From positions 1 through 23,001 of IMG/VR virus record IMGVR_UViG_3300032087_003494: a DNA stretch of 23,001 bases; one strand, 5' to 3'. The position numbers and the translations under genes were made by a program. Shown here piece by piece: positions 13,533 to 22,449 of the stretch. A model generated the notes under the pieces. The model did no database searches. It was given only the letters and a program-made list of their open reading frames with translations, and was not told where the DNA came from. Source of the DNA: a virus. Within the stretch, counting starts at the first letter, position 1. Every line of letters starts with the position of its first letter.

Positions 13533-13854
13533 CGAAACAATGTTACAAATTGCAACGGGGCCCGTTGCGGCATTGGCGTTGTGTTTACTGTTTATATTCT
13601 TTATTGGGCGTTGGTTGGCTGCGCATTTGCCCGTGTGGGTTGATCGGCATCTCAAACAGATCGATCGCATGGTGGATAGCCACAACGAAGATCGGCAAAT
13701 GTATAAAGAGAGTTTGAACGAGGTAAACAAAACGTTGATAACATTGCACGGCGATATTGGTGAATTGCAGGTAGATGTAAAGGCGATGCGTGAGGATATG
13801 ATCCGTGAACGTATGATCGAATCACGTTTAAAGGATCCACGAATCAACCAATAA
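13525..13854 (+). CDS. Holin-like membrane protein
   Basis: 109 residues; ATG 13525 overlaps the endolysin by 8 bp. One strong membrane helix spans residues 12-30 (VAALALCLLFIFFIGRWLA). It is followed by a long charged helix with coiled-coil character (residues 40-100; EVNKTLITLHGDIGELQVDV). A small single-span protein next to the endolysin is typical of class III-type holins or of an inner-membrane spanin. The lack of an overlapping lipoprotein gene argues against a spanin. It ends tail to tail with a minus-strand gene, the two stops overlapping by 11 bp, with no terminator between. Confidence 0.65.
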   Translation: MTNETMLQIATGPVAALALCLLFIFFIGRWLAAHLPVWVDRHLKQIDRMVDSHNEDRQMYKESLNEVNKTLITLHGDIGELQVDVKAMREDMIRERMIESRLKDPRINQ

Positions 13855-14359
13855 ATTTACGTACGGCATCGGGTGGGAATAAATCAAACGCCACCCGCAC
13901 AAACACCGTAAAATCACCCGTGTGGTTGTTTACAATGAATTGTGGCAAATTGGGCATGTTATCGGCAACGATTTGGGCCAATACATGGGTTTGGCACACT
14001 GCAACGTACGTACGGTTGTTGTGGGTGTGGGCCTCAATGGTGTATTTTGGCATGGTTTGATTGTTGGCCCACAATTCCAACATTTTGGTTAATTCCATAC
14101 GTATGCCAGGGTGGCGGGTATTGTACCAACGCAATGCAAAATGTTGTTTTGGTTTACCATCCCATATACGAGCCGCCACGGGCGTTTTACCCACCATGTA
14201 ATCAATACCGTATTTTGTATCGGGTATGGTGCCCTGCATACATTGCCAGTTGGATGGCCAACCATGTTGCGCCAACAATGGTATTACGTATTGCGCAAAA
14301 CGATTATGGCCCCGATCGATATTTTTCTGTACATGATCCATGCCCACAACATAGCACAC
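13844..14359 (-). CDS. Unknown protein on the opposite strand, possibly nuclease-like
   Basis: Up to 171 residues from GTG 14359, or 165 from ATG 14341 (MDHVQKN), which I favour slightly because GTGGGC precedes it. This is the only leftward gene of the first 21 kb. The motif P-D-T-K-Y-G-I-D-Y-M-V, followed about 10 residues later by A-A-R-I-W, resembles the D-x(n)-GID core of some restriction-like nuclease folds, but the expected lysine is not clear. The rest has alternating helices and strands, with Trp and His well spread, so it reads as a real soluble protein. It starts about 50 bp from the DnaA boxes, so it is divergent from the early genes and may share their control region. Function unknown. 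Confidence 0.6.
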   Translation of the reverse strand: MCYVVGMDHVQKNIDRGHNRFAQYVIPLLAQHGWPSNWQCMQGTIPDTKYGIDYMVGKTPVAARIWDGKPKQHFALRWYNTRHPGIRMELTKMLELWANNQTMPKYTIEAHTHNNRTYVAVCQTHVLAQIVADNMPNLPQFIVNNHTGDFTVFVRVAFDLFPPDAVRKFIG

Positions 14360-14392: not shown

Positions 14393-14488
14393 TTATCCAC
14401 AGGGTTATCCACAGAGTTATCCACATATGTAAAGAAAATCGCATTTTTTTGTTGTATATTTATGTATATCTTGTATACTTAAGTATAC
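14393..14488 (+). other. Candidate replication origin with three DnaA boxes
   Basis: Three perfect TTATCCACA boxes stand at 14393-14401, 14405-14413 and 14417-14425, all in one direction, each 12 bp after the last. They are followed by about 60 bp of AT-rich DNA (14426-14484) with runs of A and T that could serve as the unwinding element. The cluster lies between a leftward gene and the rightward early genes, which include primase, VapE helicase and resolvase. Known origins use exactly this array of DnaA boxes next to AT-rich DNA. It would mean the phage recruits host DnaA. Confidence 0.72.
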
Positions 14489-14499
14489 CCAATGGGTAT
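14452..14499 (+). promoter_or_regulatory. Early promoter with overlapping palindromes
   Basis: A -10 TATACT (14474-14479) with a possible -35 TTGTAT (14452-14457), spacer 16 bp, points to the early genes. The -10 lies in the perfect 16-bp palindrome GTATACTTAAGTATAC (14473-14488), which overlaps a second inverted repeat ATACCC-AAT-GGGTAT (14485-14499). The first palindrome offers a -10 on both strands. The arrangement suits an operator bound by a dimeric repressor. The small HTH proteins encoded downstream are the natural candidates. Confidence 0.5.
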
Positions 14500-14524: not shown

Positions 14525-14740
14525 ATGATTACATTAGATAAAAATTACGATTTTTGCAATTCAAAAAACATTTACATGGATGGGGTGCAAATTGGCGATG
14601 TTTTAAAATATACCGATGGCACGTTTGAAATTAGAGTATCAAAACGTAATGGCAAAACAACACGATACACAACAATCATAACTAACAACGAACAAAAAAT
14701 TATTACACTCATAACTAATTTTATTTGTGAACACCAATAA
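14525..14740 (+). CDS. Unknown small early protein
   Basis: 71 residues from ATG 14525 (MITLDKNYDF), chosen because GAGG at 14515-14518 sits 6 nt upstream. An in-frame ATG at 14492 lies inside the operator-like repeat and is unlikely. Beta-rich sequence (NIYMDGVQIGDVLKYTDGTF, RVSKRNGKTTRYTTII), no membrane segment and no known motif. It is more AT-rich than the structural genes. First gene of the rightward early run, so it would be made first after infection and may act on the host or on early control. Not recognised. Confidence 0.6.
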   Translation: MITLDKNYDFCNSKNIYMDGVQIGDVLKYTDGTFEIRVSKRNGKTTRYTTIITNNEQKIITLITNFICEHQ

Positions 14741-15102: not shown

Positions 15103-15233
15103 ACAAACAACACGCACAACAATTGGGCACCGCCATTGGGTGGTGCGCCGTTGCTATTGGGGCCGCAATGGCCTTGCCACCATTTATTAAATTATGTGTG
15201 TACACCATGTGTGTATTGTGGGGTGCCGCATGA
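15099..15233 (+). CDS. Small membrane protein
   Basis: 44 residues, ATG 15099 in an ATGA overlap with the previous stop. The sequence has two hydrophobic stretches (IGWCAVAIGAAMALPPF and IKLCVYTMCVLWGAA) split by Pro-Pro, so it may form one bent span or a helical hairpin. Short N-terminal polar head (MNKQHAQQLG). Its own stop overlaps the next start by ATGA too, so three genes are coupled in a row. A small membrane protein in an early run may act in superinfection exclusion or in host takeover, but nothing in the sequence proves this. Confidence 0.6.
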   Translation: MNKQHAQQLGTAIGWCAVAIGAAMALPPFIKLCVYTMCVLWGAA

Positions 15234-15535
15234 TTAACAACAACGATAAAACGCACCGCATGTTGGTAAAGGAATATGGCCGCCGTGTTGCCAAACAAAT
15301 GTTGATTGGCGCAGGTTTTGCCAATGATTTGCACGCATCCGTTGATGCCTCATCATTCACCCGGCAACAATTGGCGGATGCCATTGGTTGCAGTAAAGCG
15401 GCATTAGATAAATGGCTAAATGGTACCCAATACCCCGCCGTGCACTATTTGTGGCGCATTTGTGTTACCATACACCCAAACCAAACAATTATGGCGTATG
15501 TTGGGTATACCATCAAAATCAGTTTAGAGAGGTAA
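15230..15535 (+). CDS. Small HTH protein (Xre/Cro-like), first of three
   Basis: 101 residues from ATG 15230 (ATGA overlap). Residues 45-82 form a helix-turn-helix of the Xre kind: FTRQQLADAIGCSKAALDKW, then LNGTQYPAVHYLWRIC. The two helices, with the G-C-S turn and A-L-D-K-W recognition helix, match Cro/CI type readers. An N-terminal 40-residue helix region (LVKEYGRRVAKQML) may form a dimer interface. The stop is inside the ribosome binding cassette of rusA: GAG AGG TAA acact ATG. It may bind the palindrome at 14473-14488 and act in early control, which is an inference. Confidence 0.7.
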   Translation: MINNNDKTHRMLVKEYGRRVAKQMLIGAGFANDLHASVDASSFTRQQLADAIGCSKAALDKWLNGTQYPAVHYLWRICVTIHPNQTIMAYVGYTIKISLER

Positions 15536-15539
15536 CACT

Positions 15540-15962
15540 ATGTGGGATTGTGTACACACCGGGTTTATATTTGGCCCACCCGTTGCAATGGGGCGGCCAC
15601 GTATGACAAGGCAGGGTAAAGCATACACCCCCGCCAAATCACGGGAATACATGGCCGATGCCGTTGAACAAATCCAAAAGCAATATGGCGATGCGGCGCA
15701 ATTGGCAAACGAACCGTTGCGCCTGCAATTGGTGTTTGTACACAAAAGGCCCGCACGAATTAAACGCACGCAGCGCACACCCAAAACCACCAAACCCGAT
15801 ATCGATAACCTGATCAAAATGGTAATGGATGCGTTAACCAAATCGGGCATTTGGTTGGATGATAATATCGTAACCGAGGTGGCGGCATCCGATTGGTACG
15901 CCAACGAGTACGAACAACCACACGTAATGTATAGCATTTACACACAACGCCGGGGCATGTAA
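15540..15962 (+). CDS. rusA: RusA-family Holliday junction resolvase
   Basis: 140 residues, ATG 15540 after GAGGTAACACT. RusA cuts four-way DNA junctions as a dimer with Mg2+. The diagnostic parts are GRPRMTRQGKAYTPAKSREY (residues 18-37) and KPDIDNLIKMVMDALTKSGI (85-104), followed by W-L-D-D-N-I-V (105-111). D87, D89 and D107 or D108 match the catalytic Asp set of the family. Length (about 120-140) is normal. In phages RusA removes branched DNA before packaging or during recombination. Its place in the replication run fits. Confidence 0.93.
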   Translation: MWDCVHTGFIFGPPVAMGRPRMTRQGKAYTPAKSREYMADAVEQIQKQYGDAAQLANEPLRLQLVFVHKRPARIKRTQRTPKTTKPDIDNLIKMVMDALTKSGIWLDDNIVTEVAASDWYANEYEQPHVMYSIYTQRRGM

Positions 15963-16003: not shown

Positions 16004-16858
16004 ATGGAAATTACAACATTTACAAACCTGTTTAACACCAACGGGGTGCGCCAAACGTGTACGCCTGCGATGTTGGCTAAAGCGTTAACGGCACCCATGG
16101 CCAACCGTGGTGCCAAAAAACATGTGCCATTGTGGAGCCCCACAACATTTGCGGGTACCCGTGCCAAATCTAATGCCGTTGATATATGGGCATTGGTGTT
16201 TGATATGGATGATGGTTTGGCACCGTTTGATACGTGGCGCATGTTTACCGATTGGCAAGTAATCGCACATACATCATTTAGCCACAAACCGTACCACCAC
16301 AAATACCGTATTGTATTACCGTTGGCGCAACCCGTACCCGCAACCGATTGGGGCCGGGCCTCAACGGCTGCAAATCAGTTTTGGGCACATGTGGTGGGGC
16401 GTGGTACCCCTGATCAATCCGCCATACATGATAACGCCCGGGCATACTATCGTTACAGTATTCCAAACGGATGCGATCCCGAGGGCCACCCATTGCACCC
16501 CGCCCAATATCACCAAACGGCGGTGCATTTGGATGGCGATCCGTTAATACTCAAATACGACCACATAACCGAGGCGGCACCACGCCACGCAGCCCGTACA
16601 AAACCAACACAATTGCGTGGATCTAGTGTGAAAACGTACGAAATGGCAATGATGGATCCAGAGGTACGGCGCAATGTTGCCAATGCCGTTGGTGCATCTA
16701 TACAGGGCAATACGGCCCGCAACATTTTGTGCCCCGGTTGCGCCAAACGTGAGGTTTATTTTTCAATCGATCCCACATCCATTGGTGCCGTTGTTTGGCC
16801 ACGCTGTAACAGGCAAGACAAATGCGCATGGTTTGGCAAGTTGGATCAATTGGTATAA
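16004..16858 (+). CDS. AEP-type primase (PrimPol-like) with C-terminal zinc ribbon
   Basis: 284 residues from ATG 16004, set by GAGG 8 nt upstream; ATG 15980 in frame lacks a site. The core has the marks of archaeo-eukaryotic primases: D67-M-D69 (VFDMDDG) for metal binding, H89 in HTSFSHKPYHHKYRIVLPL (89-107), and the D-Q-S-A-I-H-D-N-A-R-A-Y-Y-R-Y-S-I-P segment (137-154). A C-terminal four-Cys site (C243, C246, C268, C274) forms a zinc ribbon. It would lay down primers, and perhaps extend them, at the origin region 14.4 kb. It works naturally with the VapE-like ATPase at 18851-20134; in many phages and islands the two are fused or neighbours. Confidence 0.82.
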   Translation: MEITTFTNLFNTNGVRQTCTPAMLAKALTAPMANRGAKKHVPLWSPTTFAGTRAKSNAVDIWALVFDMDDGLAPFDTWRMFTDWQVIAHTSFSHKPYHHKYRIVLPLAQPVPATDWGRASTAANQFWAHVVGRGTPDQSAIHDNARAYYRYSIPNGCDPEGHPLHPAQYHQTAVHLDGDPLILKYDHITEAAPRHAARTKPTQLRGSSVKTYEMAMMDPEVRRNVANAVGASIQGNTARNILCPGCAKREVYFSIDPTSIGAVVWPRCNRQDKCAWFGKLDQLV

Positions 16859-16871
16859 CGGAGGCAACAAC

Positions 16872-17123
16872 ATGAAATTATCAAAAAACTTTTGTTGGTA
16901 CACATTTCAAAAAGCAGCAATGAGCAGAAAAACAAGTTTTTACACGGATGGATGGATATATGACATTTTATATAAAAACGATGGATACAGGATTACCAAT
17001 AAAAGGCCGGCAGATAAAACAGACATTGTAACAAAACAAGACGAACACAATGCAACCATGCCGGATGGTACCCCATTGTATTTTACTAATGGTGCATACA
17101 AACCATTACCAAAAAAAGGGTAA
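16872..17123 (+). CDS. Unknown small early protein
   Basis: 83 residues, ATG 16872 after GGAGGCAACAAC. Rich in Lys, Tyr and Phe (FCWYTFQKAAMSRKTSFY; WIYDILYKNDGYRI). No membrane span or known motif. A C-terminal MPDGTPLYFTNGAYKPL part looks like a beta hairpin. Base composition is more AT-rich than the neighbours, a mild sign of separate origin. The stop (GGG TAA) lies in the ribosome binding cassette of the next gene. Not recognised. Confidence 0.55.
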   Translation: MKLSKNFCWYTFQKAAMSRKTSFYTDGWIYDILYKNDGYRITNKRPADKTDIVTKQDEHNATMPDGTPLYFTNGAYKPLPKKG

Positions 17124-17127
17124 CAAC

Positions 17128-17439
17128 ATGAAACGCAAACATTTTACCAAACCACCCGGTTTATCATCGTTTGGCAATTGGCTATTTGCCGAACTGTTTA
17201 CACGCAATATCACTATTAACGAAATGGCGGCCAAATTGGATACATCACGCACAACATTGATATCATACATGCAGCACCCAACACGGATACCAGGCCACCG
17301 CATTTTGCAAATATGCGCCATACTATCGCCAACCGTGATGCATTACCACAAAATGGTGCCAAATGCCATGCGGGCGTTGCCAAACTACAACACCATTTAC
17401 AACACACAAAAGGAGGCACAACACAATGCCAAACATTAA
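17128..17439 (+). CDS. Small HTH protein, second of three
   Basis: 103 residues from ATG 17128, preceded by AAAGGGTAACAAC. Residues 27-64 form an Xre-like helix-turn-helix: ITINEMAAKLDTSRTTLISY, then MQHPTRIPGHRILQICAIL. The pattern of two helices followed by P-x-x-x-x-I-L-Q-I-C is shared with the proteins at 15230 and 18595. The C-terminal 40 residues are polar and short of structure. It overlaps the adenine methyltransferase by 14 bp, whose AAAGGAGG site lies inside this gene, so both are probably produced together. Target unknown. Confidence 0.68.
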   Translation: MKRKHFTKPPGLSSFGNWLFAELFTRNITINEMAAKLDTSRTTLISYMQHPTRIPGHRILQICAILSPTVMHYHKMVPNAMRALPNYNTIYNTQKEAQHNAKH

Positions 17440-18061
17440 TTTACATTTGGGTAATTCACTCGAGGCCATGCGCAAAATGCCCGATAACAAATACACGTTG
17501 GCCATTGTGGATCCGCCGTACGGTATGGGCCATAAAGCGTGGCAAGGTGGGTTACCTGAGAGATACGGCACCCGTGTATTTTTCAATATGAAAGATAAAG
17601 CCCAACACTGGGATGTGGCACCCGGGCCCGAATACTTTGATCAATTGATGCGTGTATCCCAAAACCAAATCATATGGGGCGGTAATTATTTCCCGAGTAT
17701 TTGGCAACATGGTGGCCGTTGTGTAATTGCATGGGATAAATGCCAACCGTGGCCTAATTTCTCGCAAATCGAGTTGGCATGGACATCATACAACAAACCC
17801 GCCAAACTGTTTAAATATGATAACCGCACAAAAGGCAAGATCCACCCAACACAAAAGCCGATTGATCTGTATTTGTGGTTATTAGATACGTTTGCACAAC
17901 CGGGTGATACCATTTTGGATACCCATTTGGGATCGGGATCCATTGCATGCGCCTGTTATGATGCGGGGTACGATCTAGATGCGTGGGAAATTGATCCAGA
18001 ATACCACGCCGCAGCCACCGCACGATACAACGAACACAGCCGCCAAACCAAACTATTTTAA
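17426..18061 (+). CDS. DNA methyltransferase, probably adenine-N6, beta class
   Basis: 211 residues. ATG 17426 is chosen because AAGGAGG lies 9 nt upstream; longer in-frame starts would overlap the HTH gene further. Motif IV D29-P-P-Y-G comes first, then IIWGGNYFPSIWQ, a K-I-H-P-T-Q-K-P segment (around 137-144) and motif I D165-x-H-x-G-S-G-S, with E188 (AWEID) as motif II. This order (IV before I) marks the beta group, and DPPY favours adenine-N6 over cytosine-N4. There is no separate target domain, so specificity is not predictable. No restriction partner is near, so it is an orphan that would shield phage DNA or mark origins. Confidence 0.9.
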   Translation: MPNINLHLGNSLEAMRKMPDNKYTLAIVDPPYGMGHKAWQGGLPERYGTRVFFNMKDKAQHWDVAPGPEYFDQLMRVSQNQIIWGGNYFPSIWQHGGRCVIAWDKCQPWPNFSQIELAWTSYNKPAKLFKYDNRTKGKIHPTQKPIDLYLWLLDTFAQPGDTILDTHLGSGSIACACYDAGYDLDAWEIDPEYHAAATARYNEHSRQTKLF

Positions 18062-18349: not shown

Positions 18350-18598
18350 ATGAGTAAACAACAAATTGATATACGGCGGTGGGCCTATTGCCGCCAAACA
18401 TGCATAGAAATTGCGCAGGCCATACAAACATTGGCCAATGGCGATTTGGAAACAATGCAACGCATTTGGGATGCACCAACACCCGAGGAGCGCAAACAGG
18501 TGTTGCAAATGGCATGGGGCACCGCCAAACCGAGTTTAACAACAATGTTTTGGGGATGGGGTACCGAGATCGAACGGCCAACGGATGGTGGCAAATGA
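18350..18598 (+). CDS. Unknown small helical protein
   Basis: 82 residues, ATG 18350 after GAGGTAACAAC. It is mostly helical (IRRWAYCRQTCIEIAQAIQT; TPEERKQVLQMAWGTA) with a Trp-rich end (MFWGWGTEIERPTDGGK). No catalytic motif or membrane span. Overlaps the next gene by ATGA. Lying between the methyltransferase and the VapE gene in one run, it may be an accessory to replication, but this is only from position. Confidence 0.58.
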   Translation: MSKQQIDIRRWAYCRQTCIEIAQAIQTLANGDLETMQRIWDAPTPEERKQVLQMAWGTAKPSLTTMFWGWGTEIERPTDGGK

Positions 18599-18867
18599 AC
18601 ACACAAACATTTACAACGTGGTTAAATTCTACAATTCAGAATATGGAATTAACCCGGCGTGCATTTGCAGATCTCGCCAACGTTGGGTACCAAACATTGC
18701 ACCCATGGCGTTTACGGGATTTTGATCCGAGCATGATCACATTTATCAGGGTGTGCCATGCGGTGGCCAAATTAACCAACCGCCCATTGCATGTGGTAAT
18801 ATGTGAGGCCATACAAACAACAAAAGCATACAAACAATTAGGGGTACAAAATGACACAGATCAATGA
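18595..18867 (+). CDS. Small HTH protein, third of three
   Basis: 90 residues, ATG 18595 in an ATGA overlap. Residues 18-50 give a helix-turn-helix: ELTRRAFADLANVGYQTLHP, then W-R-L-R-D-F-D-P. It continues with ITFIRVCHAVAKLTNRPLH, the same post-HTH helix type as in the proteins at 15230 and 17128. The turn (N-V-G-Y) is less typical, so DNA binding is likely but not sure. It overlaps the VapE-like gene by 17 bp, whose site AGGGG lies inside it. It may regulate or load the replication genes. Confidence 0.6.
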   Translation: MNTQTFTTWLNSTIQNMELTRRAFADLANVGYQTLHPWRLRDFDPSMITFIRVCHAVAKLTNRPLHVVICEAIQTTKAYKQLGVQNDTDQ

Positions 18868-20134
18868 TATTATTGCGGCATCAGGCGTTGTAATCGATAA
18901 ATCACATTGCCCACAATCGGGCCATTTGCCTACGTGGCATGTGTTGCGTAAATCCCCGGCCAAATTTGATGCCGATGGGAATATCACCAAATTGCCCAAT
19001 GCCATCAATTGCCGCCACAATTTGGCGTTGATCCTCGAGGGCGATCCAAAATACGATACGTTGGCGTATTGTGAACACTCCGATCGTTTATTGTTTCATG
19101 GCGACATGATCGAGCCTGCACAGTTGCAACAAATCGCATTGGATTTAGAGCGGGATTATCGTTTAAAATGTAAGGATAACGAACTAACCGGGGCCATTGT
19201 ACGGGTTGCCAATATGAATACCGTTGAGCCCATTAAAGAGTGGCTACAAGCATTGGCACCATGGGATGGCACACCACGCATTAACGGCATGTTTACCGAA
19301 CGATGGGGCGTTGAGACACCCGCCACAAAAGAAGAGCAACAATTTATTGGCATGTTGGCGGTGCGTTGGATGGTATCACTCGTTGCCCGCATTATGGATC
19401 CCGGTTGCGATGTGCACACGGTTTTAACATTGGTTGGGCCAAAAGGGATGGGCAAAAGCCGTGGGCTACGTGCATTGGCTTCTAAACCGTGGTTTAGTGA
19501 TTCCAATATCAACATTACCAACAAAAGCGCCTACGAGTTGTTGCACCAATCATTGGTGTGGGTTTGGGAATTGGCAGAAATGCACGCATTACATGGCCGC
19601 AGTGCCAACAATGCCAAAATGTTTTTAACCAGTGCGGCGGATCGATATCGGCCAACATGGGGTAAAACACCCGTGTTACGCCAACGCCGTACGGTATTTG
19701 TAGCCACCACGAACGATTACCAATTTTTATCGGATGGCCCCGAACGGCGTTTTTGGCCATTGAAAGTGGTTAATAAAATTGATGTTGATTGGGTTGCATC
19801 CAATCGGGTACAATTGTTTGCCGAGGCGTTGCACATGTACAAAGGGGGCACCAAATGGTTTTTAAACGATATCGAAGAGATCACACTCGAACGTATGCAA
19901 CAGGCGTTTATTATTTCCGATCCATGGGCTACGGCTGCGCAATCGGTATTGGAAAACGATAACCCCGATTTGTTACCCACAACCGATGCCATTATGGATG
20001 CGTTGGATATCCCAAAAGCACAACGCAATGTTGGGTATTCCCGCCGCATTTCGCAAATATGCCGTGATTTGGGATATCAAGTAAAGCAAACCCGAGGCAA
20101 GCGCATTTGGGTAAACCGCAGGGGTGGCAAATGA
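18851..20134 (+). CDS. VapE-like (VirE) P-loop ATPase, replicative helicase
   Basis: 427 residues, ATG 18851 after GGGGTACAAA. Residues 125-145 carry the family opening (IKEWLQALAPWDGTPRI). Walker A is G-P-K-G-M-G-K-S (196-203). Walker B is V-W-V-W-E-L-A-E (236-243). Sensor T-T-N-D is at 286-289. The arginine finger R-R-F-W-P (299-303) is the hallmark of the virulence-associated E family. These ATPases act as hexameric helicases in phage and island replication, normally with an AEP primase, as here with the gene at 16004. The N-terminal 110 residues hold a His/Cys-rich part (CRHNLAL, YCEHSDRLLFHGD) of unknown role. The C-terminus (RNVGYSRRISQICRDLGYQV) looks like a winged helix for DNA contact. 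Confidence 0.9.
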   Translation: MTQINDIIAASGVVIDKSHCPQSGHLPTWHVLRKSPAKFDADGNITKLPNAINCRHNLALILEGDPKYDTLAYCEHSDRLLFHGDMIEPAQLQQIALDLERDYRLKCKDNELTGAIVRVANMNTVEPIKEWLQALAPWDGTPRINGMFTERWGVETPATKEEQQFIGMLAVRWMVSLVARIMDPGCDVHTVLTLVGPKGMGKSRGLRALASKPWFSDSNINITNKSAYELLHQSLVWVWELAEMHALHGRSANNAKMFLTSAADRYRPTWGKTPVLRQRRTVFVATTNDYQFLSDGPERRFWPLKVVNKIDVDWVASNRVQLFAEALHMYKGGTKWFLNDIEEITLERMQQAFIISDPWATAAQSVLENDNPDLLPTTDAIMDALDIPKAQRNVGYSRRISQICRDLGYQVKQTRGKRIWVNRRGGK

Positions 20135-20889
20135 TACGCATTGGATCACTTTTCTCCGGTGTGGGCGGGTTTGAACTCGGGATCGAGCGGGCAATCCCAA
20201 ATGCCCACACCATTTGGCAAGTAGAACAAGATACATTTTGCCAATCAATTTTACGTAAACATTGGCCCAACGCCACAATTTACGATGATGTACGCACCGT
20301 TGGTGCACACAATTTACAACCAATCGATATTTTAATTGGTGGTTTCCCATGTCAGGATATATCCACCGCAGGCAAACAAAGAGGTATTATAAATGGCACA
20401 CGCTCGGGTTTATGGTGGGAAATGCACCGCCTTGTATTGGAATTACGACCACGAATTATTATCATGGAAAACGTGGCAAACATCATTCGATTGGGCGGCA
20501 CCGATGTTGTTGGATCGCTTGCCAACATCGGGTATGATTGTGAATGGAGCGTTATATCGGCTCGACAATTTGGCGCACCCCACATGCGCAAACGTTGGTT
20601 TTGTGTTGCCTACCCCAACGTGTCACGATGTAAAAAACGCAATGAGCCCATCATGTTGGAACAGAGCGGCGGATCTCGGAGTGGAGATCGCAAAATTGGA
20701 GGGGTACACATCAGAAACTATTGGAAAGAAGAAACGCATCCACCCCGATTATGTAACGTGGATGATGGGATTCCCGATCGATTGGCTAAATTAAAGGCGT
20801 TGGGCAATGCGATTGTGCCCCAATGCTCGGAATACATCGGCAAATTGGTTTTACAATCGGGTTTGTTGGATGATTTGATCAACCAGTAA
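20131..20889 (+). CDS. DNA cytosine-5 methyltransferase
   Basis: 252 residues from ATG 20131 (ATGA overlap with the VapE gene). Motif I is L-F-S-G-V-G-G (7-13), motif IV G-G-F-P-C74-Q-D-I-S with the catalytic Cys, motif VI E-N-V (113-115), motif VIII G-A-P-H-M-R-K-R (148-155), motif X G-N-A-I-V-P-Q (225-231). All catalytic parts are intact. Between motifs VIII and X only about 70 residues remain, where a target recognition domain usually takes up more, so the protein is small for its family (HhaI methylase has 327). This same region codes a second protein in the +1 frame (20393-20794). No restriction partner is near. Likely function is protection or marking of phage DNA. Confidence 0.93.
   Translation: MIRIGSLFSGVGGFELGIERAIPNAHTIWQVEQDTFCQSILRKHWPNATIYDDVRTVGAHNLQPIDILIGGFPCQDISTAGKQRGIINGTRSGLWWEMHRLVLELRPRIIIMENVANIIRLGGTDVVGSLANIGYDCEWSVISARQFGAPHMRKRWFCVAYPNVSRCKKRNEPIMLEQSGGSRSGDRKIGGVHIRNYWKEETHPPRLCNVDDGIPDRLAKLKALGNAIVPQCSEYIGKLVLQSGLLDDLINQ
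20381..20395 (+). promoter_or_regulatory. Internal ribosome binding site for the nested gene
   Basis: GAGG (20381-20384), within AAAGAGGT, stands 8 nt before ATG 20393. It lies inside the methyltransferase frame and resembles the GAGGTAACAAC-ATG cassette used by most genes of this phage (7 nt gap). It decides the start of the nested +1 frame gene. Confidence 0.65.
20393..20794 (+). CDS. Nested +1 frame gene inside the C5 methyltransferase (WMMGFP family)
   Basis: 133 residues, entirely inside the methyltransferase gene, one base ahead in frame. It is not random: in order it has S-W-K-T-W-Q-T-S-F (near residue 24), L-P-T-S-G-M-I-V-N-G-A-L-Y-R-L (44-58), F-V-L-P-T-P-T-C-H-D (69-78) and H-P-D-Y-V-T-W-M-M-G-F-P-I-D-W at the end. 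From general knowledge this resembles phage proteins with SW(K/R)TSQ, W/L-P-x-S-G-M-x-x-N-G, (L/W)PTPTxxD and NPxWVEWLMGFPxGW signatures, often found beside C5 methylases. The end is the +1 reading of VDDGIPDRL in the methylase, so both frames carry conserved motifs over the same bases. Function is unknown. It may be a partner of the methylase. A shadow translation of a conserved gene is the competing view, but the internal ribosome binding site and ATG speak against it. Confidence 0.6.
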   Translation: MAHARVYGGKCTALYWNYDHELLSWKTWQTSFDWAAPMLLDRLPTSGMIVNGALYRLDNLAHPTCANVGFVLPTPTCHDVKNAMSPSCWNRAADLGVEIAKLEGYTSETIGKKKRIHPDYVTWMMGFPIDWLN

Positions 20890-20922
20890 ATGCCCACGTG
20901 CAAGTTGTGCGGCGTTGTTATT

Positions 20923-20964
20923 GGCTATATTGTACCAACACACACATGGGGGTACAATATGGCC
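20923..20964 (+). promoter_or_regulatory. Hairpin covering the exonuclease start codon
   Basis: GGCTATATTGTACC (20923-20936) can pair with GGTACAATATGGCC (20951-20964): 14 bp with one U-G wobble, loop of 14 nt. The inner 10 bp (ATATTGTACC / GGTACAATAT) are perfect also as DNA. The right arm holds part of the GGGGGT site (20948-20953) and the ATG at 20959. In RNA this would block initiation until melted. It could alternatively be a DNA operator. Confidence 0.62.
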
Positions 20965-21546
20965 ATTTGTTTTGTAGATACTGAGACAACCGGGTTGGAT
21001 AAATCACGCCACGAAATCATTGAGATCGCAATTATCGTTTGGGATGGTGGGCAATTGAAGGTTTACAACCAACGGTTGTTACCTGTGCACATCGCCACCG
21101 CAGACCCAAAAGCACTAGAGATCAACGGTTATACACCCTCGGGTTGGATGGATGCGCCAACATTTGCCGAACAGGCACAAACCATTGCGGATCTACTATG
21201 TGGTAACATTGTTGTTGGGCACAATATCCAATTCGATATCGCCTTTATAGAAAAGCAATTACGAGGCGCATGTATTCCAATACCGAGGTATCGCACCGTT
21301 GATACATGTACATTGGTACACGAACATTTAACACCCATTGGTTGCCCGGGGCATAGTATGGATAAAGTGCGGGCATATCTCGGTTGGGTACGCCCACATG
21401 CGCATACGGCGTTTGTGGATGCCATGGATTGTTACCGATTGTACAAACTATTGGTGCGGGCCTCAGTGTGGCAGCGGTTTAAAATATGGGCGTTGCATAA
21501 ACTGCGGCCATACATCCAATGGTACAAAACAGATAAAAGCAGATAA
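20959..21546 (+). CDS. DnaQ-like 3'-5' exonuclease (DEDDh)
   Basis: 195 residues from ATG 20959; an alternative ATG at 20890 would add 23 residues (MPTCKLCGVV...) but has no ribosome binding site, while GGGGG precedes 20959 by 6 nt. Exo I V-D7-T-E9-T-T-G, Exo II G-H-N-I-Q-F-D93 and Exo III H149-T-A-F-V-D154 give the complete DEDDh set. The enzyme removes nucleotides from 3' ends with two metals. It could proofread for the primase or host polymerase, or trim DNA in recombination. No polymerase domain is fused. The last residues (KTDKSR) are coded by the CAGATA repeats, which also code the end (KADKSR) of the facing gene. Confidence 0.85.
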   Translation: MAICFVDTETTGLDKSRHEIIEIAIIVWDGGQLKVYNQRLLPVHIATADPKALEINGYTPSGWMDAPTFAEQAQTIADLLCGNIVVGHNIQFDIAFIEKQLRGACIPIPRYRTVDTCTLVHEHLTPIGCPGHSMDKVRAYLGWVRPHAHTAFVDAMDCYRLYKLLVRASVWQRFKIWALHKLRPYIQWYKTDKSR

Positions 21547-21749
21547 AAGCAGATAGAAACAGATAGCCAAAACGGCTAGAACATCCAACGGTACGGCATC
21601 ATACGCAAAAATTGCTCTATAAAACAGATAAATTACAATTCTTTTTTAAAAAAAATAATTATAGTTTAGTAAAGATACACATACAAAAATGGCCCAATGT
21701 TGATAGTACATCGAGCCGTTGCGCATTATAGGCGAAAATACACCCGTTT
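21547..21749. other. AT-rich convergent intergenic region without a gene
   Basis: About 200 bp between the facing genes with no credible coding frame. It holds a short inverted repeat TAGCC-AAAAC-GGCTA (21564-21578), a very AT-rich core (21620-21670, including CTTTTTTAAAAAAAATAATTATAG) and a leftward promoter-like pair. No T-run terminator is obvious for either flanking gene. Confidence 0.7.
21658..21686 (-). promoter_or_regulatory. Promoter-like pair pointing left into the exonuclease gene
   Basis: On the minus strand TTGTAT (21686-21681) and TATAAT (21663-21658) are 17 bp apart. The -10 is perfect and the -35 is the same hexamer proposed for the early promoter at 14452. Transcription would run antisense through the repeats and the 3' end of the exonuclease gene. 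AT-rich DNA gives such matches by chance, so this is tentative. Confidence 0.35.
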
Positions 21750-22097
21750 TTATCTGCTTTTATCTGCTTTTATCTGCTTTGCAATGCGTTTTGCCCACCG
21801 TTGTGCAGGTGTACCACCCCACAATGCCCATGCAATTGCCATTTTGGATGTGCGATCCCGCCGTTTATCTGCGTTTGCCTGTGAATGGCGTGCAAACCAT
21901 GCGGCCATTAACTCGATTTGTGCATCACTAACCGATCCCGATGCCAAACGGCGTGCGGTTCTCATCCCTGTACCAGGTACACGTTTACCGCCCTCATCCT
22001 TATACGCTGCACGTTTGGATTGTGGTAACGATCGGTTGTATTCCAACGCACGGTTGGCGATTAATTGTATTTGCCGTGGTACTCTGTATTGTGCCAT
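21750..22097 (-). CDS. Small phage protein with IAWALWGG motif
   Basis: 115 residues from ATG 22097 (MAQYRVPRQ), preceded on the minus strand by GGGGGA; a longer frame to 22172 has no site. A perfect -10 TATAAT lies at 22124-22119 on the minus strand, with no good -35. The protein has R-T-A-R-R-L-A-S-G-x-V-S, M-A-A-W-F-A-R-H and I-A-W-A-L-W-G-G-T-P-A-Q-R-W-A. This order matches a small domain common in phages, alone or fused to head maturation proteins (FARHE ... IAWLLWGGDxGRxWA). Its role there is not established. Very basic N-terminal half. The last residues KADKSR come from the repeat array. Being close to the region where packaging genes may start fits the family. Confidence 0.68.
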   Translation of the reverse strand: MAQYRVPRQIQLIANRALEYNRSLPQSKRAAYKDEGGKRVPGTGMRTARRLASGSVSDAQIELMAAWFARHSQANADKRRDRTSKMAIAWALWGGTPAQRWAKRIAKQIKADKSR

Positions 22098-22157: not shown

Positions 22158-22382
22158 ATGACACCCACTCAATACAAAGAATATGCCATATCACGCAAAA
22201 TACTATTGTTACGCCGTGAGGGATTCCCGCAGCGACAAGCCACGGCGATCGCATTTCGTATGTGGCGTGATGGTGAGTTAAAACCACAAAAGCCGGGCGA
22301 ACGTAAACGCCAACGGGATTTACGGCGGCGGCGTTGGTATGATCAACGTAAACGTATGAGGGATCAAGATGTACAAAAATAA
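22158..22382 (+). CDS. Small basic protein
   Basis: 74 residues, ATG 22158; only GGAT is seen as a site. The first half is a helical unit (ISRKILLLRREGFPQRQATA, then IAFRMWRDGELKP), which resembles short helical domains in phage proteins that read E-G-F/Y-P-x-x-Q-A-x-A-I-A. The second half is nearly all Arg, Lys and Gln (KRQRDLRRRRWYDQRKRMRD), suited to nucleic acid binding. It starts 60 bp from the divergent gene at 22097, sharing an AT-rich spacer. It overlaps the next small gene by 14 bp. Function unknown. Confidence 0.6.
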   Translation: MTPTQYKEYAISRKILLLRREGFPQRQATAIAFRMWRDGELKPQKPGERKRQRDLRRRRWYDQRKRMRDQDVQK

Positions 22383-22449
22383 ACCAATGAAACGCAAAAC
22401 AACCAAACGTAAACCAATGAAACGTGGCAACAAACGGGGCAAACAATAA
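22369..22449 (+). CDS. 26-residue Lys/Arg-rich peptide with KPMKR repeats
   Basis: ATG 22369 follows GAGGG (22358-22362) by 6 nt, and the frame ends at TAA 22447-22449, overlapping the next ATG by one base. The product begins MYKNKPMKRK and holds K-P-M-K-R twice, 10 residues apart, with 13 of 26 residues Lys or Arg. The site, the coupling at both ends and the repeat argue for a real gene. A DNA or RNA binding or condensing role is plausible. It was too short for usual gene finders. Confidence 0.6.
   Translation: MYKNKPMKRKTTKRKPMKRGNKRGKQ

Follow-up and report, generated by a model that had tools for sequence, protein, structure and literature searches.

DnaA boxes at an early promoter, and a probable iteron origin 7 kb away, in a phage encoding a VapE-like helicase

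Here, we analysed a 23,001-base IMG/VR virus record (hereafter the window), in which three DnaA boxes stand 5' of an early promoter, P1. The reading that we favour, at a probability of roughly 55%, is that these boxes modulate P1, the promoter of the replication operon, and that replication starts at an iteron origin at 21526-21780. The boxes, operators, promoter and iteron architecture, together with their conservation, are established at the level of sequence. Phages that encode an initiator helicase are generally regarded as independent of DnaA. In this phage family, DnaA arrays recur beside origins of the PICI type, and in one clade they lie at the replication-gene promoter, providing a natural comparison between two uses of host DnaA, directly at an origin and indirectly via a promoter, as well as an easy route to origins in uncultured VapE phages. 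The proposed iteron origin is a new PICI/SaPI-type member, carried here by a phage; the combination of DnaA array and iterons at the origins of relatives, as well as the promoter-placed boxes of the clade, also look new as far as the open-licence literature shows.

DnaA boxes and an operator-bearing promoter

A first-pass annotation had described this block as three perfect TTATCCACA copies at a 12-bp period, AT-rich DNA, a 16-bp palindrome covering a -10 element and a further inverted repeat, all lying between divergent genes. Each of these elements was located precisely, as follows.

14393-14401, plus strand: DnaA box 1, TTATCCACA, exact match
14405-14413, plus strand: DnaA box 2, TTATCCACA, exact match
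14417-14425, plus strand: DnaA box 3, promoter-proximal, TTATCCACA, starting 56 bp before the palindrome
14426-14451, plus strand: spacer of A-tracts and T-tracts that may act as an UP element, within the second least stable 60 bp
14452-14479, plus strand: early promoter P1, TTGTAT - 16 bp - TATACT, called on conservation
14454-14469: operator copy O1, GTATATTTATGTATAT, three mismatches against the palindrome, over the -35/spacer
14473-14488: operator copy O2, perfect 16-bp palindrome GTATACTTAAGTATAC, no mismatch, over the -10/start
14485-14499: inverted repeat ATACCCA-A-TGGGTAT

Three exact 9-mers in one orientation, at a fixed period and within 33 bp, cannot be the product of chance; the single further exact TTATCCACA in the 23 kb, at position 306, falls within an ORF of the structural region. 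Among the 60-bp stretches of the window, 14426-14485 comes second in order of nearest-neighbour instability, and the promoter also lies inside it. The block is flanked by a minus-strand ORF (13844-14359) and by a plus-strand gene whose ATG is at 14525. P1 was not picked by a generic sigma-70 consensus scan of the window, so that the promoter call rests on conservation.

The inverted repeat at 14485-14499 is a candidate for a third operator or a hairpin in the 5' leader. In an alignment judged by eye, relatives keep its arms and differ in the loops, and one of them (L262, near 3459) displays an apparent compensated double change, from ACCC/GGGT to ACAC/GTGT.

Downstream of P1, the plus-strand early run encodes an HTH protein, RusA, a primase-like protein, DNA methylases, a VapE-like helicase and a DnaQ exonuclease. 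The principal genes around the block are listed below.

13844-14359, minus strand: divergent gene, 171 aa, conserved in relatives
14525-14740, plus strand: first gene of the P1 operon, 71 aa, variable in relatives
15194-15535, plus strand: Cro/C1-type HTH protein, candidate operator ligand (HTH_3, E 2e-5)
15540-15962, plus strand: RusA-like resolvase
16004-16858, plus strand: primase-like protein (phrog_9765, E 2e-6)
18851-20134, plus strand: VapE-like helicase, candidate initiator (PF05272, E 4e-56; PDB 7pds, E 7e-24, deposited under the title 'Similar to D. nodosus vapE')
20890-21546, plus strand: DnaQ-like exonuclease, its 3' end overlapping the left iterons

The two DNA methylase genes of the replication operon occupy 17363-18061 and 20107-20889 (N4/N6 type and C5 type), and HTH proteins are also encoded at 17050-17439 and 18484-18867. 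Further downstream, a 15-bp tandem repeat, TAAACCAATGAAACG, is present in 3.1 copies at a gene end (22380-22425), and a 15-bp repeat was also seen in L265 (3934-3983). Capsid, tail and lysis genes are all encoded by the phage itself, which looks lytic; no integrase was found in nine records searched, which makes a lytic life likely, although the records are fragments. A search of bacterial genomes returned no relative of the primase and one distant match to VapE (35%, in a Myxococcota MAG), while searches for phage matches gave one weak hit for the capsid and none for the primase.

Conservation in relatives

We compared the block with 18 viral loci found with the primase-like protein. The boxes are present in close relatives, where their absence would, according to the first-pass annotation, have counted against its proposal. 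Their number is three, two, one or degenerate: in four close relatives there are two, at the 12-bp period, which leaves the window with one extra 12-bp unit, and the third box is private to it. Two boxes 21 bp apart are found in L250, a single box in L253, L254 and L261, and a degenerate box, TTATCAACA, at the position of the proximal box in L262. The distance to the promoter is fixed, with the proximal box lying 55-58 bp 5' of the palindrome in the window, L247, L248, L127, L128, L250, L253, L254 and L261. This spacing holds down to about 61% primase identity, with the exception of L249, whose two boxes, 32 bp apart, are at -77 and -109 from the palindrome. Across the close set, variation touches 0-1 of the 18 box columns (the sole variable column being an effect of gap placement) versus 26 of 59 columns in flank and spacer (Fisher p 0.002), supporting constraint on the boxes at the level of the alignment.

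Relatives likewise conserve the -10, the palindrome and O1, the operator copy that covers the -35. At the P1 position, L129 and L249 carry TTGACA - 17 bp - TATATA, and the form in L249 supports the promoter call. Five relatives also contain a second operator-promoter copy, P2, downstream and on the same strand (L249, at primase start +1822; L252; L255; L257; L260), and O1 is present in P2 as well. The earlier proposal of an early promoter with operators is thus borne out by conservation and by recurrence of the module. All five P2 copies are devoid of DnaA boxes, indicating that operators and boxes are separable and, given the similar hexamers, that DnaA is not essential for this type of promoter. 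The notion that the boxes offset a weak -35 was dropped, since the box-free P2 has a similar -35, TTGCAT.

A probable iteron origin 3' of the VapE-like helicase gene

Approximately 7 kb from the boxes, two inverted iteron sets flank AT-rich DNA.

21526-21565, plus strand: left iterons, 4 x 10 bp, AAAACAGATA / AAAGCAGATA, of the form AAAA(G)CAGATA
21617-21676: AT-rich melting region, the least stable 60 bp of the window by nearest-neighbour stability
21748-21780, minus strand: right iterons, 3 x TTTTATCTGC, in the opposite orientation to the left set

PICI origins always have their AT-rich region between two iteron sets (PMC6092414), and SaPI origins lie directly 3' of the Rep helicase gene, the C-terminus of the helicase reading the iterons (PMC7581432). 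On the strength of this architecture, the stretch at 21526-21780 is probably the replication origin of the phage. The arrangement is kept in L265 and L270. In the divergent relative L264, both arms carry AAAACACTTA as iterons, the kind of concerted change to be expected of two sets read by a single protein. Faster divergence of the VapE C-terminus along with iteron change was considered and set aside as too weak (64.7% versus 74.5% for the core, in L259).

To place the window in its family, we used 80 viral loci fetched with a VapE alignment, a sample that is independent of DnaA boxes; several are near-duplicates, and the counts are therefore of loci and not of independent events. In 58 stretches (the window and 57 loci), iterons were evaluated around the AT-rich minimum within 2.3 kb 3' of VapE. 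At least three plus three inverted iterons flank that minimum in 67% of the 58, as compared with 0.03% of 2939 control positions, the iteron type varying by subgroup (CAGATA, AATACA, ACACTA, TCACAC and others).

Clusters of DnaA boxes lie 3' of VapE in 22 loci and 5' of it in two, both belonging to the clade of the window, whose origin has no DnaA array. Eleven of the 22 loci have their least stable stretch 3' of VapE as well, and in these 11 the start of the array falls between the helicase gene and the stretch; arrays may face either way, so that this is not a strictly directional device. The most complete example, L064 (11877-12389), combines eight DnaA boxes, CAGATA iterons, AT-rich DNA and inverted iterons directly 3' of VapE, and L302 is arranged in the same manner.

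DnaA arrays in other viral DNA

Three-box arrays were found in at least 119 viral stretches, and the spacing of same-strand boxes in viral contigs is helically phased, with peaks at 11-13 and 20-22 bp. Of a non-redundant set of 87, 37 have their array within an ORF. In 27 of these, the boxes are on the opposite strand to the ORF, and they are read mostly as VDN/VDK repeats. Ten proteins encoded over such in-ORF arrays were scanned; six match replication-initiation families (O-like or DnaD-like) and four match none. Initiator genes in which tandem boxes appear as VDN/VDK tetrapeptide repeats were noted in L003 (9479-10477), L016 (1107-2006), L026 (9600-10415), L058 (8810-9730), L060 (8493-9518) and L078 (1314-2498).

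In 26 of 70 loci, no more than 500 bp separate the array from the least stable 60 bp, where 7.4 loci would be expected. Tandem DnaA arrays of phages are thus often linked to an origin, a pattern from which the window departs. Among genes flanking intergenic arrays, a VapE-type helicase accounts for 4 of 72 near ORFs and for none among the 25 families listed of 56 far ORFs, an association that is suggestive only.

Where replication starts

The first-pass annotation had regarded origin and early promoter as merged at the block. The promoter half of that proposal stands, with its operators and with boxes under constraint; the origin half finds no support, with the probable origin placed at 21526-21780. 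In a merged site, DnaA would melt the AT-rich DNA and load a helicase, with transcription and repressor tuning initiation, and the site could serve as a secondary origin. DNA that ranks second in instability within the window does adjoin the boxes on their 3' side, with the polarity of R1 and the DUE in E. coli oriC, and in other phages three-box arrays are found within initiator genes and close to unstable DNA. However, several observations argue for replication starting elsewhere, which the earlier annotation had named as grounds for rejecting its proposal. The evidence is indirect: the iteron origin is the better candidate, is found family-wide and matches the VapE-like helicase. Furthermore, relatives are reduced to one box or to a degenerate one. 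Runs of DnaA-trios within 16 bp of a box differ among relatives and are near chance (31-79% in shuffles), the strand on which they would be read not being settled. GC skew had been suggested as a check and was discarded as an origin marker: the cumulative curve has its maximum, not its minimum, near 14.0-14.5 kb, which is uninformative and speaks against an origin there. Taken together, we consider a merged origin unlikely.

A model for DnaA at P1

With the probable origin 7 kb away, a role for DnaA in adjusting early expression is more likely than local initiation of replication. P1 would be the main early promoter and drive the replication operon, and a phage repressor occupying O1 and O2 would silence it by covering the -35 and -10. 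Host DnaA on one to three boxes, 61-93 bp 5' of the inferred start, would modulate P1, so that expression of the primase, the VapE helicase and DnaQ would follow host DnaA. The VapE-like helicase would then bind the inverted iteron sets, melt the AT-rich DNA between them and fire the origin downstream. That DnaA, the repressor and VapE bind their sites is inferred, as is the sign of the DnaA effect. DnaA stimulates transcription at ori-lambda (PMC8203912; PMC3985674), and by analogy with lambda pR, activation is slightly favoured.

Counting in favour of modulation at P1 are the fixed position of the boxes, their constraint, the conserved promoter and operators, and an origin located elsewhere. 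Counting against it are the box-free P2, the failure of the generic scan to pick P1, the usual linkage of three-box arrays to origins in other phages, and a spacer between box and promoter that is easily melted. DnaA control has possibly shifted from origin to promoter. In the fuller version of this idea, which we put forward tentatively and rate short of even odds, in DnaA-using relatives the array lies 3' of VapE, next to the iteron origin; the clade of the window would have moved it to a set position 5' of the repressor-controlled promoter of the replication genes, with DnaA gating phage replication via transcription.

The boxes could alternatively act as a DnaA sink like datA, titrating host DnaA on a multiplying genome and slowing host initiation. 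Perfect consensus tandem boxes copied with each phage genome would suit this role, and a sink could tolerate their variable number; however, one to three boxes are few, and a sink has no need for a fixed distance from a promoter, making this explanation improbable. We give equally little credence to the boxes serving the iteron origin by looping, or being the relic of an origin-side array that a rearrangement has moved. The array of L064 and L302 lies directly beside the same CAGATA iterons, where the clade of the window has none, but the distance of 7.1 kb is large and the fixed promoter spacing would be left unexplained. That a phage protein reads the TTATCCACA repeats in place of DnaA is very improbable: several HTH proteins are encoded nearby and tandem repeats are typical of phage regulators, but the repeats are the exact DnaA consensus and recur at 11-13 and 20-22 bp in unrelated viral contigs.

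Comparison with known systems

The proposed modulation of P1 by DnaA has its closest parallel in lambda pR and ori-lambda, which share with the window host DnaA sites by the early promoter of the replication operon and a link between DnaA, transcription and replication (PMC8203912, PMC3985674). In lambda, the iteron origin lies inside the transcribed O gene, whereas the probable origin of the window, identified from sequence, is 7 kb off; the window also differs in having perfect tandem boxes 5' of the promoter at a fixed distance. Phages with a DnaA array in their initiator gene resemble lambda in this respect, where the iterons lie within O.

The tandem boxes beside AT-rich DNA, with the polarity of R1 and the DUE in E. 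coli, recall the basal unwinding system of bacterial oriC (PMC8287927). Unlike oriC, the window has no consistent DnaA-trio run, and its AT-rich stretch is filled by the promoter and operators.

The probable downstream origin shares with PICI/SaPI replicons a VapE-like helicase and inverted iteron sets around an AT-rich region, 3' of the helicase gene. In contrast to these elements, the window belongs to a phage with structural and lysis genes of its own, and two genes separate helicase and origin; many relatives, moreover, add a DnaA-box array between the helicase gene and the iterons. Composite iteron plasmid origins with DnaA boxes (P1 oriR, pSC101 and RK2) have their counterpart in relatives such as L064, with its DnaA boxes, iterons and AT-rich DNA, whereas in the window the DnaA boxes and the iterons are 7 kb apart.
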